This document shows, piece by piece, positions 56,859-61,664 of a stretch of 64,000 nt of DNA. Position 1 is the first letter of the stretch; each line of letters begins with the position of its first letter. Under the pieces are notes generated by a model, which did no database searches, was not told where the DNA came from, and saw only the letters and a list, made by a program, of their open reading frames with translations. This DNA comes from Methylococcales bacterium (lineage in GTDB: Bacteria > Pseudomonadota > Gammaproteobacteria > Methylococcales > Methylomonadaceae). The stretch covers positions 1 through 64,000 of the forward strand of contig JAPLRP010000077.1 in NCBI GenBank assembly GCA_026399095.1. Reading direction: 5' to 3'. A program made the translations under genes and the position numbers.

Positions 56859-57112
56859 TTCCCTCATCTTGGTTTTTACCTTAAAACAGCTTTTATAGAA
56901 ATTTATGCCACCTAATCTTAGTGGCTTACTTAAATTTACCCCATAGTCGTTTTTTAAATCAAAAAACATTCAATCCCCAATCCCCCCCCAAAAATATTCT
57001 GCCTTGCAGAAATACTTAATAATTTTACAGGTTACATGATGTTATAGTTTTTTTAGCACATATTAAAAAAACCAAGCAATAATTAATAGTATTTCATACC
57101 GAGGAAGGATGA
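56859..57112 (+). other. Left part of the spacer before the sulfide-oxidation genes
   Basis: The full pgpA-pdo spacer is 480 nt. This part has no gene. A run of eight C occurs near 56980-56990 inside CAATCCCCAATCC-type sequence, and the remainder is AT-rich. The dyads and sigma-54 promoter described separately lie to the right. Confidence 0.4.
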
Positions 57113-57177
57113 GACATTATGTTTCACTGAAACATGATGTCTTCGGGCAATACTTCAGTATGAAACATCATGTTTTA
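57113..57177 (+). promoter_or_regulatory. Palindromic upstream activator candidates
   Basis: GACATTATGTTTCA (57113-57126) and TGAAACATGATGTC (57128-57141) form a 14-bp inverted repeat around one C with a single mismatch; its core ATGTTTCA-C-TGAAACAT is perfect. A third TGAAACAT (57161-57168) is followed by C and ATGTTTTA, a degenerate partner. Outer CATAC/GTATG arms (about 57096 and 57157) add more symmetry. The dyads are 85-140 bp before the sigma-54 promoter, the usual place for an enhancer-binding protein. Confidence 0.65.
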
Positions 57178-57240
57178 ATAATAGATTATTATAATTTTAA
57201 ATATATTATATAAAACAATAAGTTAATTTTTTATGAGTTA

Positions 57241-57256
57241 TGGCACAGGCTTTGCT
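57241..57256 (+). promoter_or_regulatory. Sigma-54 (-24/-12) promoter of the sulfide-oxidation genes
   Basis: TGGCACAGGCTTTGCT matches the sigma-54 consensus TGGCACrNNNNTTGCW at every fixed position, with exactly 12 nt from the GG of -24 to the GC of -12. It lies 83 nt before the ATG of the persulfide dioxygenase gene on the same strand, with dyads further upstream. Transcription would start near 57267. Confidence 0.8.
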
Positions 57257-57338
57257 TTTATATTAATTAAAAGCACATTATTTTCAGACGCTGAGTATGA
57301 AAATCTAATCAATTAAAAGCACTATTTGGAGAGACTTA

Positions 57339-58424
57339 ATGATATTTAAACAATTATTTGACGCAGAAACTTGGACTTATACTTACTTAATTGCTGATTC
57401 GATCAGTAAAGAAGCGATTTTTATTGATCCTGTTAATACACATATTGATGACTATATTGCCTTACTGGAAGCGAATGGCTTACAGCTTAAATACTCATTG
57501 GAAACACATGTTCATGCCGATCATATCACGGCAAGTGGCTTGTTACGTCAGCGCTTGGGCGCGCAAACAGCTGTTAGCCAACTGTGTGGCGCTGAAACAG
57601 CTGATGTTCAGATCCAAGATGGCGATATCTTTACTTTAGGCTCCACTGAGCAGCTTAAAGTAATTGCTACGCCAGGACATACTCGAGGCAGTATTTCTTT
57701 TTTATGGCATGATAGAGTTTTTACAGGTGATTCTTTATTCGTTGGTGGTTGTGGCCGTACCGATTTTCAAGGCGGTGATCCAGGTGCTCTTTACGATTGT
57801 ATCACGCAACGGTTGTTTACCTTGCCTGATGAAACACTGGTCTATCCTGGTCATGATTATCAAGGGCGGTGGGTTAGTAGTATCAAACAGGAGCGAACTA
57901 GCAACCCCCGCTTGACTGGGAAAACACGTGAAGAGTTTATTGTAATTATGAATAATCTTAATTTACCAAAACCACGTTTAATTGATGAAGCTGTACCTGC
58001 CAATCGTTATTGTGGTTTGGATGAAAATGAGCGTCAGGATGCAGTTGCGTTAAGAGATACTTCACGTCCTGTTCGCAGTGAACTCAGCCCTCAAGATTTG
58101 GTGGCTGAGGCAAAAAAACAGATTACTGAAGTGACAGTGCTTACGGCTAAACAACTACTTGCAGAAGGCAATATTGTATTGGTTGATACTCGTGAAGAGA
58201 GCGAATATGCAGCGGGACATATTGATAATGCATTGTTGCTACCTCGTGGTGTTTTGGAATTTAAAATTGGCAACAGTCCTGAATTATCTGACAAATCCAA
58301 AGCAGTATTGATTTATTGCCGTACTGGCGGTCGCTCTGCATTGGCAGCACATACCCTGCAGCAATTGGGTTATAAAAATGTACTGTCTATGGCTGGTGGC
58401 TTTGATGCTTGGCAAAAAGCATGA
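57339..58424 (+). CDS. Persulfide dioxygenase-rhodanese fusion protein
   Basis: A 361-residue two-domain enzyme. The N-terminal metallo-beta-lactamase domain (1-240) is of the ETHE1/persulfide-dioxygenase type: metal motif THVHADH (His57, His59, Asp61, His62), ATPGHTRGS, FTGDSLFVGGCGRTDFQGG and YPGHDYQGR. The C-terminal rhodanese (about 262-361) has the active Cys327 in YCRTGGRSA. Such fusions oxidise glutathione or other persulfide to sulfite and shuttle sulfur. An excellent GGAGAG site precedes the ATG. It is first in a likely operon with sqr and sulP. Confidence 0.92.
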   Translation: MIFKQLFDAETWTYTYLIADSISKEAIFIDPVNTHIDDYIALLEANGLQLKYSLETHVHADHITASGLLRQRLGAQTAVSQLCGAETADVQIQDGDIFTLGSTEQLKVIATPGHTRGSISFLWHDRVFTGDSLFVGGCGRTDFQGGDPGALYDCITQRLFTLPDETLVYPGHDYQGRWVSSIKQERTSNPRLTGKTREEFIVIMNNLNLPKPRLIDEAVPANRYCGLDENERQDAVALRDTSRPVRSELSPQDLVAEAKKQITEVTVLTAKQLLAEGNIVLVDTREESEYAAGHIDNALLLPRGVLEFKIGNSPELSDKSKAVLIYCRTGGRSALAAHTLQQLGYKNVLSMAGGFDAWQKA

Positions 58425-58527: not shown

Positions 58528-59776
58528 ATGGCACAACATCATACTATCTTGATTGTCGGTGGCGGTGCAGCGGGAGTGTCCGTCGCTAATAATATGCGTC
58601 GTCAAAACGCCAATATTGATATTTCAATTATTGAGCCATCAGACAAGCATTATTACCAGCCAGGCTTTACCATTATTGGTGGCGGTGCTTATACATTAAA
58701 AGAAACCACGCGTAATGAAGCAGATTTAATACATCCATCGGTTACCTGGATAAAAGATTACGCAGAAACTTTTCAGCCAGATGAAAACACGATAACTTTA
58801 CGTTCGGGTGAAACCATTAGTTATGATTATCTAGTTGTCTGTCCGGGTCTTCAGTTAGATTGGAACAAAGTTGCCGGCTTAAAGGAAACCCTGGGTAAAA
58901 ATAATGTCTGTAGTAATTATTCACCAGATACCGTTGAATATACTTGGGAATGCATTAAAAATATCGAATCGGGAACAGCACTTTTTACCCAACCACCCAT
59001 GCCTATCAAGTGCGCCGGTGCGCCACAAAAAATAATGTATTTGGCTGCAGACCGGTTTCGTAAAAAAGGTCTTTTAGAAAAAATTAACGTTGAATTTTTT
59101 AATGCCGGACCTGTCATATTTGGCATTCCTTTTTTTGCAAAAGCCTTAAATAAAATAGTAGCGGGTTATGGAATAAAAACCAATTTCAATCAAAATCTTG
59201 TTGCTATTGATGGTCCGGCTAAAACTGCCACGTTCGAAATCACAGACACTGAAGGTAACAAACAGCAAGTCGTTAAAGCTTTTGACATGATCCATGTAAC
59301 ACCACCACAAAGTGCACCTGATTTCATTAAAAATAGTCCTTTAGCCAATGCTGCCGGATGGGTAGATGTCCATGAAAATACCCTTCAACATACTAAATTT
59401 CCAAATATATTTAGTTTAGGTGATGCAACGTCAACGCCAAATGCCAAAACTGCAGCGGCAGTCAGAAAACAGGTGCCTATATTGGTCGATAATATTTTTC
59501 ATCTTATTGAAGGTAAAGCACTACAAGAAAAGTATGACGGTTACGGTTCATGTCCGTTAACCATCGCTAAGTACCGTGATTTTAGCGGAGTTTTCCTACG
59601 GTGGTAAGATAACACCTTCTTTTCCCATGCTCGATCCAAGAAAAAGTTTGTTTATTTGGTGGATAGGTAAAAAAATAGGTTTTCCATGGATGTACTGGCA
59701 TTTAATGCTTAAAGGTTATCGTATCGATATACCGCATTTAGAATCTTATGCTAAACGCTTCCTAAAAGAAGAATAA
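58528..59776 (+). pseudogene. sqr: Sulfide:quinone oxidoreductase, type II, with a one-base frameshift
   Basis: A flavoprotein very similar to human SQOR: FAD motif VGGGAAGVS, VCSNYSPDTVEYTW, IKCAGAPQKIMYLA with Cys162 and YGSCPLT with Cys342, the pair that bonds sulfur. The first frame runs to a stop at 59607. Family identity, however, continues in the +1 frame from about 59576 (VILAEFSYGGKITPSFPMLD ... PWMYWHLMLKG) to 59776. Dropping one C at about 59572-59573 (TACCGTG to TACGTG) joins the frames seamlessly as AKYVILAEF. Either a real mutation that removes the C-terminal membrane-binding segment or a sequencing error. GGAGG lies 5 nt before the ATG. Confidence 0.88.
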
Positions 59777-59936: not shown

Positions 59937-61664
59937 ATGAGCGGATTAAAATCTCATATGTTACGATTAATAAGATTCTTTCCCATTACAGAATGGCTTA
60001 AGACCTATACTCGGAATGAATTTAACAGTGATTTGTTCGCTGGCATTATCACCGCTATCTTACTTGTTCCACAAGGCATTGCTTATGCAATTCTAGCTGG
60101 CTTGCCACCTCAGCTAGGACTTTATGCAAGTATTCTTCCACCGCTATTTTATGCTTTTTTAGGTACTAGCCGAACTTTATCAGTCGGGCCGGTTTCAATT
60201 GCCGCCATCATGATTGCCAGTATTTTAAACTCGCCTGAGATTAGTGCCTTGGGAGATCCGGTCCAAAGTGCATTAATGTTGTCGGCAGAATCGGGATTGA
60301 TCATGTTGCTGATGGCTATCCTACGAATGGGCGGGTTGGTTAATTTTATCAGTCATCCGGTACTTACCGGCTTTACCAGCGGCGCCTCACTTTTAATTAT
60401 CGGCAGTCAATTACCTCAATTACTGGGTTTAAAAAGCCCAAGTTGTGGTTTCGATTTCGATTGTTACAGGGATTATCTACTGGGCTATAACTTGGCTACA
60501 TTACTGGTTGGCATATCAGCATTAACTCTATTGATAGCTTTTGGCAAGCCACTTATTGCAGTGCTAAAAAAAGCCGGTTGTAAACTTTCCTTAGTGACGG
60601 CAATCAGTAAGTGCGGGCCCTTATTGACAGTGCTTTTAGCAACTCTTGTGGTGAGTTATTTTGGTTTAACCACTCAAAATAATGTCGCAGTTGTCGGTAA
60701 AGTACCGACTGGCTTTCCTGCGTTAAGTCTGGATTTTATTAGTCTTGAAAAATGGCGTTTATTACTGCCAGGGGCTGCTTTTATTGCTTTAATTGCTTAC
60801 GTAGAAAGTGTCGCTATTGCCAAAGTTACCGCAAATCTAAGAGGTGAAAAAATAGTACCTAACCAAGAGTTAATAGCGCTGGGTGTGGCTAATCTTGCCA
60901 CGGCTATTTCTGGCGGCATGCCTGTTGCGGGCGGCTTTAGCCGAACAATGGTTAATTTTTCTGCCGGTGCGCGAACGCAAATGGCGATGCTTATCGCGGC
61001 AGGCATCTTGGCCTTGGCCGTTATCTTTTTTAGTCCGTGGTTTGAAAATATACCCAAAACTGCTTTAGCCGCCATTATTTTGGTTGCCATTATTCCATTG
61101 GTACGTTTAGGCAACATTATTCACACTTGGAAGTACGATGTTGGTGATGGAATTGCTGAAACAGTTACCTTACTAGGTGTTTTAATCTTGGGTATTGAAG
61201 AAGGTATTAGCCTGGGCATTATTCTTACCATCTTTTGTTATTTACGTAAAGCAAGTCACCCCCATATAGCCGTCGTTGGGCGTATTCCTAATACAGCCCA
61301 TTATAGAAATATCAAGCGTCACGAAGTAGAAACTTGGCCACATTTGTTATTACTTCGTATTGATGAAAATATTACTTTTGCGAATGTGAATTTTATAGAA
61401 GAATTTATGTCGAAAGAATTACAACGTCAGAGTACTATTAAACAGGTTATTCTGATTTTTACTTCGGTCAGTAATATAGACCTGACCGCTTTGGAAGCCT
61501 TAGAGCATTTGAATCGTGCCTTACAAGAGGCTCACATCACATTATATCTAACAGAAGTAAAAGGCCCTGTTCTGGATAAACTAAATCGAACCAACTTTGT
61601 GGACCAACTCAAGCCAGGCAAAGTATTTTTTTGTACCGAAGATGCCATAGCAGAGCTGGCTTAA
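59937..61664 (+). CDS. SulP family anion transporter
   Basis: A 575-residue SLC26/SulP protein with about 12-14 membrane spans (35-440) and a cytoplasmic STAS domain at about 460-570. The SulP signature PQGIAYAILAGLPPQLGLYAS is near residue 44, and GGMPVAGGFSRTMVNFSAGA is the conserved inner motif. Members carry sulfate, bicarbonate or other anions. Next to persulfide dioxygenase and sqr, export of sulfite/sulfate is the likely use (inference). Confidence 0.92.
   Translation: MSGLKSHMLRLIRFFPITEWLKTYTRNEFNSDLFAGIITAILLVPQGIAYAILAGLPPQLGLYASILPPLFYAFLGTSRTLSVGPVSIAAIMIASILNSPEISALGDPVQSALMLSAESGLIMLLMAILRMGGLVNFISHPVLTGFTSGASLLIIGSQLPQLLGLKSPSCGFDFDCYRDYLLGYNLATLLVGISALTLLIAFGKPLIAVLKKAGCKLSLVTAISKCGPLLTVLLATLVVSYFGLTTQNNVAVVGKVPTGFPALSLDFISLEKWRLLLPGAAFIALIAYVESVAIAKVTANLRGEKIVPNQELIALGVANLATAISGGMPVAGGFSRTMVNFSAGARTQMAMLIAAGILALAVIFFSPWFENIPKTALAAIILVAIIPLVRLGNIIHTWKYDVGDGIAETVTLLGVLILGIEEGISLGIILTIFCYLRKASHPHIAVVGRIPNTAHYRNIKRHEVETWPHLLLLRIDENITFANVNFIEEFMSKELQRQSTIKQVILIFTSVSNIDLTALEALEHLNRALQEAHITLYLTEVKGPVLDKLNRTNFVDQLKPGKVFFCTEDAIAELA

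Follow-up and report, generated by a model that had tools for sequence, protein, structure and literature searches.

A phased half-site array and sigma-54 promoter upstream of pdo-sqr in Methylococcales as a candidate FisR enhancer

Organization of the pdo-sqr locus

The window, i.e., the whole 64,000-nucleotide stretch of Methylococcales DNA analyzed here, carries a sulfide-oxidation gene cluster on its forward strand. The pdo gene (57339-58424, + strand) encodes a 361-aa fusion of a metallo-beta-lactamase persulfide dioxygenase (PDO) with a rhodanese, for which PF00753 and PF00581 are both matched above cut-off and none of the matches reaches the NCBIfam equivalog cut-off. It is preceded by a putative ribosome-binding site, GGAGAG (57328-57333, + strand), and GGAGA-type sites are also seen before pdo in several relatives. 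The sqr gene (58528-59607, + strand), coding for a sulfide:quinone oxidoreductase (SQR), is shortened: compared with four relatives it lacks 2 nt between 59563 and 59564, so that its frame stops at 59607, while the final 70 conserved SQR residues run on in another frame to 59776. This deletion may be a real mutation or an assembly error. Further downstream lies a gene for a sulP-family anion transporter (59937-61664, + strand), which follows pdo-sqr in 60 of the 78 relatives' loci and is a probable member of the cluster.

Upstream of pdo, the element TGGCACAGGCTTTGCT (57241-57256, + strand) agrees with the sigma-54 consensus TGGCACRNNNNTTGCW at all specified bases, with the -24 GG at 57242-57243 and the -12 GC at 57254-57255 (coordinates checked on the sequence). 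A sequence-only reading of this DNA had called it a near-perfect -24/-12 element, which is borne out, the match being exact. The element has the form TGGCACRN4TTGC with the correct GG-GC spacing, and the homologous positions are conserved in relatives. At up to one mismatch, TGGCAYRNNNNTTGCW occurs at two sites in the window, of which 57241-57256 is the sole exact one, versus 3.7 sites expected, so that the promoter match by itself says little. Based on promoter geometry, transcription is predicted to start at 57267 (+ strand), 12 nt past the -12 C, which would leave a leader of about 72 nt. Sigma-54 promoters require an activator, and rpoN is represented in the window's genome by a PF04552 match (G000:C40).

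The primary dyad of the candidate enhancer is found at 57112-57142 and consists of 15-nt arms (57112-57126 and 57128-57142, with 14 of 15 positions paired) around a 1-nt centre at 57127. The inverted repeat had previously been described as 14 bp long; it is present, and its arms are in fact slightly longer. The core ATGTTTCA-C-TGAAACAT occupies 57119-57135 and includes an exact TGTTTCA-N-TGAAACA at 57120-57134; the dyad centre precedes the -12 C by 128 bp. This 17-mer dyad is unique in the 2.77-Mb genome, where all other sites carry at least three mismatches, and the next-best site within the window itself has three. A third half-site, TGAAACAT, is located at 57161-57168 in the orientation of the dyad's downstream half, 33 bp (three helical turns) away from the dyad's own TGAAACAT, and is followed by a degenerate ATGTTTTA at 57170-57177. 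The second partial copy noted in the sequence-only reading is thus the extra TGAAACAT, while the unit is better described as a helically phased half-site array than as a dyad with a partial copy.

Conservation of the array in Methylococcales

A non-redundant set of 76 Methylococcales regions, each comprising the 300 bp upstream of a pdo homologue, was examined, with dinucleotide-shuffled and coding sequences as controls. Forty-five of these 76 regions contain TGTTTCA-N-TGAAACA, 27 of them exactly and 18 with a single mismatch, versus 0.01 regions per replicate in the shuffles and 0/76 in the coding controls. A lack of conservation in relatives had been named beforehand as an outcome that would refute the dyad; the conservation observed is far above chance. 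Across 78 pdo upstream regions, 248 GTTTCA/TGAAAC half-sites were counted, compared with 18 after shuffling. Half-sites that share an orientation are spaced mostly by 11-12, 21, and 32-33 bp, corresponding to one, two, and three helical turns, and among inverted pairs in these regions the 7-bp step seen in the dyad is the most frequent. Of the 78 homologous upstream regions, 63 have a sigma-54 element with a score of 13/15 or more, dyad and promoter occur together in 51 of the 78 loci, and the nearest dyad centre in the relatives mostly lies 75-131 bp before the -12 element. Judged from these arrangements, the putative functional unit is an array of half-sites in helical phase, with TGTTTCA-N-TGAAACA as its best unit. 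Such phasing fits activator dimers aligned along a single side of the helix, unlike a terminator or a single operator. A composite search for the dyad and a sigma-54 site separated by 60 to 90 bp (dyad-N{60,90}-sigma54) gave 0 matches in 369 genomes of the class and 398 genomes of the phylum; since this range excludes the 105-107 bp gaps of the window and of Acinetobacter baumannii, the result speaks for a nil background only and has no bearing on a wider spread of the array.

FisR as the candidate regulator

Eight clear sigma-54 activators are encoded in the window's genome, comprising NtrC-like, NtrX-like, response-regulator, VpsR-like, and other types, and one protein with PAS-AAA+-HTH_8 architecture. 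The latter is a FisR orthologue, whose gene lies outside the window, downstream of ispG (G000:C90:37465-38835), and whose domains are a borderline PAS, PF00158, and PF02954, with the GAFTGA motif present. The sequence-only reading was therefore right that fisR is outside the window, but the regulator is not missing, and the genome search that it proposed for a fisR-like gene did find one. In the relatives' loci around pdo (up to ~11 kb), the PAS-AAA+-HTH_8 protein is the only one of the eight for which orthologues were found, in about 30 of the loci. In 24 of the relatives' loci, fisR is divergent from and close to pdo, and 22 of these 24 intergenic regions contain the dyad at up to two mismatches. 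This adjacency is absent in the window's genome, where fisR sits behind ispG on C90 and no dyad of its own is found beside it. The adjacency of fisR to pdo-sqr is thus a usual feature, not an essential one. At two loci (L077:4068-5003 and L102:3311-4671), a fisR frame lies in pieces beside pdo, owing either to decay or to sequencing error.

The recognition helix SRATFWRKRK is nearly invariant across the methanotroph FisR orthologues. Among 33 aligned FisR orthologues, the PAS cysteines Cys71 and Cys34 are kept in 28 and 22 sequences, respectively. In an AlphaFold model of one FisR orthologue, strands and helices follow each other as in a PAS domain, at pLDDT values of ~80-90; the model as a whole is poor (pTM 0.36), and with its low overall confidence it was used for the PAS domain alone.

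Comparison with Acinetobacter baumannii

In A. baumannii, FisR activates the pdo1-sqr-tauE-hsd operon (A1S_1708-1711), and deletion of fisR abolishes its induction by sulfide (PMC7315123). Two A. baumannii sequences that have this operon's gene order or adjacency carry in the fisR-pdo intergenic region a series of half-sites in the order R, R at +11, F at +7, R at +21, and an F-like one at +21, followed by TTGGCATCTTATTTGC. The distance from the dyad centre to the -12 C is 128 bp, equal to that in the window. The two systems have in common a sigma-54 promoter, pdo-sqr as targets, the half-site array, and the dyad-to-minus-12 distance. They differ in that fisR is divergent at the operon in A. 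baumannii, as in the 24 relatives, whereas it is on a separate contig in the window's genome, and in that the PDO of the window is fused to rhodanese, unlike that of A. baumannii. Moreover, both PAS cysteines kept in methanotroph FisR are absent from A. baumannii FisR, and the HTHs of A. baumannii FisR and the window genome's FisR are identical at only 14 of 47 positions. That the site is conserved across orders despite the diverged HTH would imply conserved contacts. The suggestion of the sequence-only reading, a sigma-54 promoter under FisR-like control with the TGAAACAT dyad as the candidate activator site, is strongly supported by both the conservation in relatives and this comparison.

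Neither "binding site" nor "inverted repeat" occurs in the available text of PMC7315123. According to papers that cite Li et al. (2017, doi 10.1111/mmi.13725), FisR of Cupriavidus pinatubonensis JMP134 responds to sulfane sulfur and activates genes for sulfide oxidation with sigma-54, which resembles the control proposed for the present system. No description of a FisR DNA code was found in the literature searched, and the Cupriavidus primary paper may report a site. The region upstream of Paraburkholderia pdo is GC-rich, contains no array, and has no adjoining fisR, and is thus uninformative.

Interpretation and alternative explanations

We consider it very probable that the region upstream of pdo comprises the enhancer and promoter of a FisR/sigma-54-regulated sulfide-oxidation operon. 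FisR would most likely bind the GTTTCA/TGAAAC array ~90-130 bp upstream as dimers lined up on the same side of the helix, and the PAS domain of FisR probably registers sulfane sulfur via cysteines such as Cys71. Upon this signal, the AAA+ ring would be activated and the DNA would loop, allowing the GAFTGA loop to remodel sigma-54 RNA polymerase at 57241-57256. Transcription from near 57267 would then lead to the synthesis of PDO-rhodanese and SQR, and we infer that the operon is induced by sulfide. A FisR-type enhancer with a sigma-54 promoter before pdo-sqr is a known kind of regulation; what is novel is the half-site code, together with the candidate targets cydAB and the SoxB-like gene described below.

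It is conceivable that, in some or all of the genus, another sigma-54 activator binds the array, with FisR being merely a frequent neighbour, and several relatives do have the dyad plus a well-matching sigma-54 element with no detectable FisR. In G004, G012, G017, G023, and G032, neither FisR nor a piece of it was found in full-length, N-terminal, or C-terminal searches, while the dyad at pdo is kept. The genes on either side of fisR in the window's genome, ispG and a helicase gene, are neighbours in G017 and G032 with no fisR between them. These five are fragmented MAGs, and either the gene was missed in the assembly or another activator may read the array. Yet no other activator family was found around pdo in the relatives' loci, and in G012 and G032 none of the activators that were read carries an HTH of FisR type, their HTHs being unrelated. 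The array is moreover shared with A. baumannii, where induction is lost on fisR deletion, so we regard a different activator as unlikely. A separate case is L056 (JAQTPT010000005.1), whose pdo upstream region contains a degenerate sigma-54 element, TGGCGCAGGCATAACT, and a partial dyad; FisR was not found in the matching genome, G013 (~100% complete), which suggests that promoter and regulator decayed jointly.

Persulfide-sensing repressors of the BigR/SqrR/CstR type govern pdo or sqr genes elsewhere in response to reactive sulfur (PMC7315123), and the dyad might be the operator of such a sulfur-responsive repressor, overlaid on the promoter. However, their mechanism is repression and not sigma-54 activation, and the array, ~75-130 bp upstream of the -12 element, is beyond the reach of simple occlusion, helically phased, and variable in copy number, as is typical of enhancers. 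The dependence of sigma-54 promoters on an activator also argues against this reading, which we hold to be very improbable. The inverted repeat could in principle also work as RNA, for instance as terminator of the upstream thiL-pgpA operon, as its 15-nt arms are capable of forming a hairpin. But the dyad has a centre of 1 nt only, no T-run follows it, a terminator scan makes no call, and the dyad is retained where the upstream neighbour is a divergent fisR; together with the half-sites kept in phase across DNA turns, these observations led us to drop an RNA role, which we deem the least probable of all. We thus favour FisR as the activator that reads the array, and its candidate DNA code is now tied to an operon with FisR genetics.

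A possible wider regulon

A search of the window's own genome for further dyad sites, as proposed in the sequence-only reading, gave none below three mismatches, and 35 genomes of the genus hold 13 exact copies. Eight of the exact dyads lie before pdo, one is placed ahead of the fisR gene in a fisR-pdo cluster, and two lie before a SoxB-like gene. The remaining two are each followed by a pdo gene that seems truncated at the end of its contig: the dyad in L141 is followed by a pdo that is cut at the contig end, and that in L139 adjoins a leader matching the one of L141. The SoxB-like gene behind the exact dyad (L133:1501-3015 and L134) encodes a metallophosphoesterase, whose best NCBIfam match is SoxB, far below the cut-off, and is preceded by a weaker sigma-54-like element, TGGCATGGTTTTAGCT.

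In two genomes (G001 and G003), a fisR gene located away from pdo is divergent from cydA and faces a TGAAAC half-site array with a sigma-54 site upstream of cydA. The regions, which include a small ORF ahead of cydA, span L237:2651-3931 (G001:C464), where the sigma-54 element is TGGCACAGGCTTTGCT, the same as in the window, and L236:6228-7560 (G003:C82), where it is TGGCATAAGCCTTGC. Cytochrome bd is described as refractory to sulfide, and cydAB of A. baumannii is sulfide-induced (PMC7315123). No array was found upstream of A. baumannii cydAB, so the link to cydAB is not universal, and direct control of cydAB by FisR is predicted for some methanotrophs only.

It appears evenly balanced to us whether the phased TGAAAC code, read by FisR and conserved from Methylococcales to Moraxellales, defines a methanotroph sulfide-stress regulon that comprises pdo-sqr, cydAB for a sulfide-tolerant quinol oxidase, and the SoxB-like gene. 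If so, FisR would couple the removal of sulfide with a switch of the respiratory chain. The methanotroph code points to a direct coupling of sulfide oxidation to cytochrome bd, which would bear on the survival of aerobic methane oxidizers at sulfidic interfaces, where the effect of sulfide on these organisms has been called virtually unknown (PMC10205796). Given the half-site code, FisR regulons would also become predictable from sequence.

The SoxB-like gene was further encountered beside pdo itself. An array before it was not found in L132 or L110. SoxB-like genes lie upstream of pdo in L055, L092, L110, and L132, and where pdo lacks a dyad, a SoxB-like gene is in several relatives its immediate upstream neighbour.
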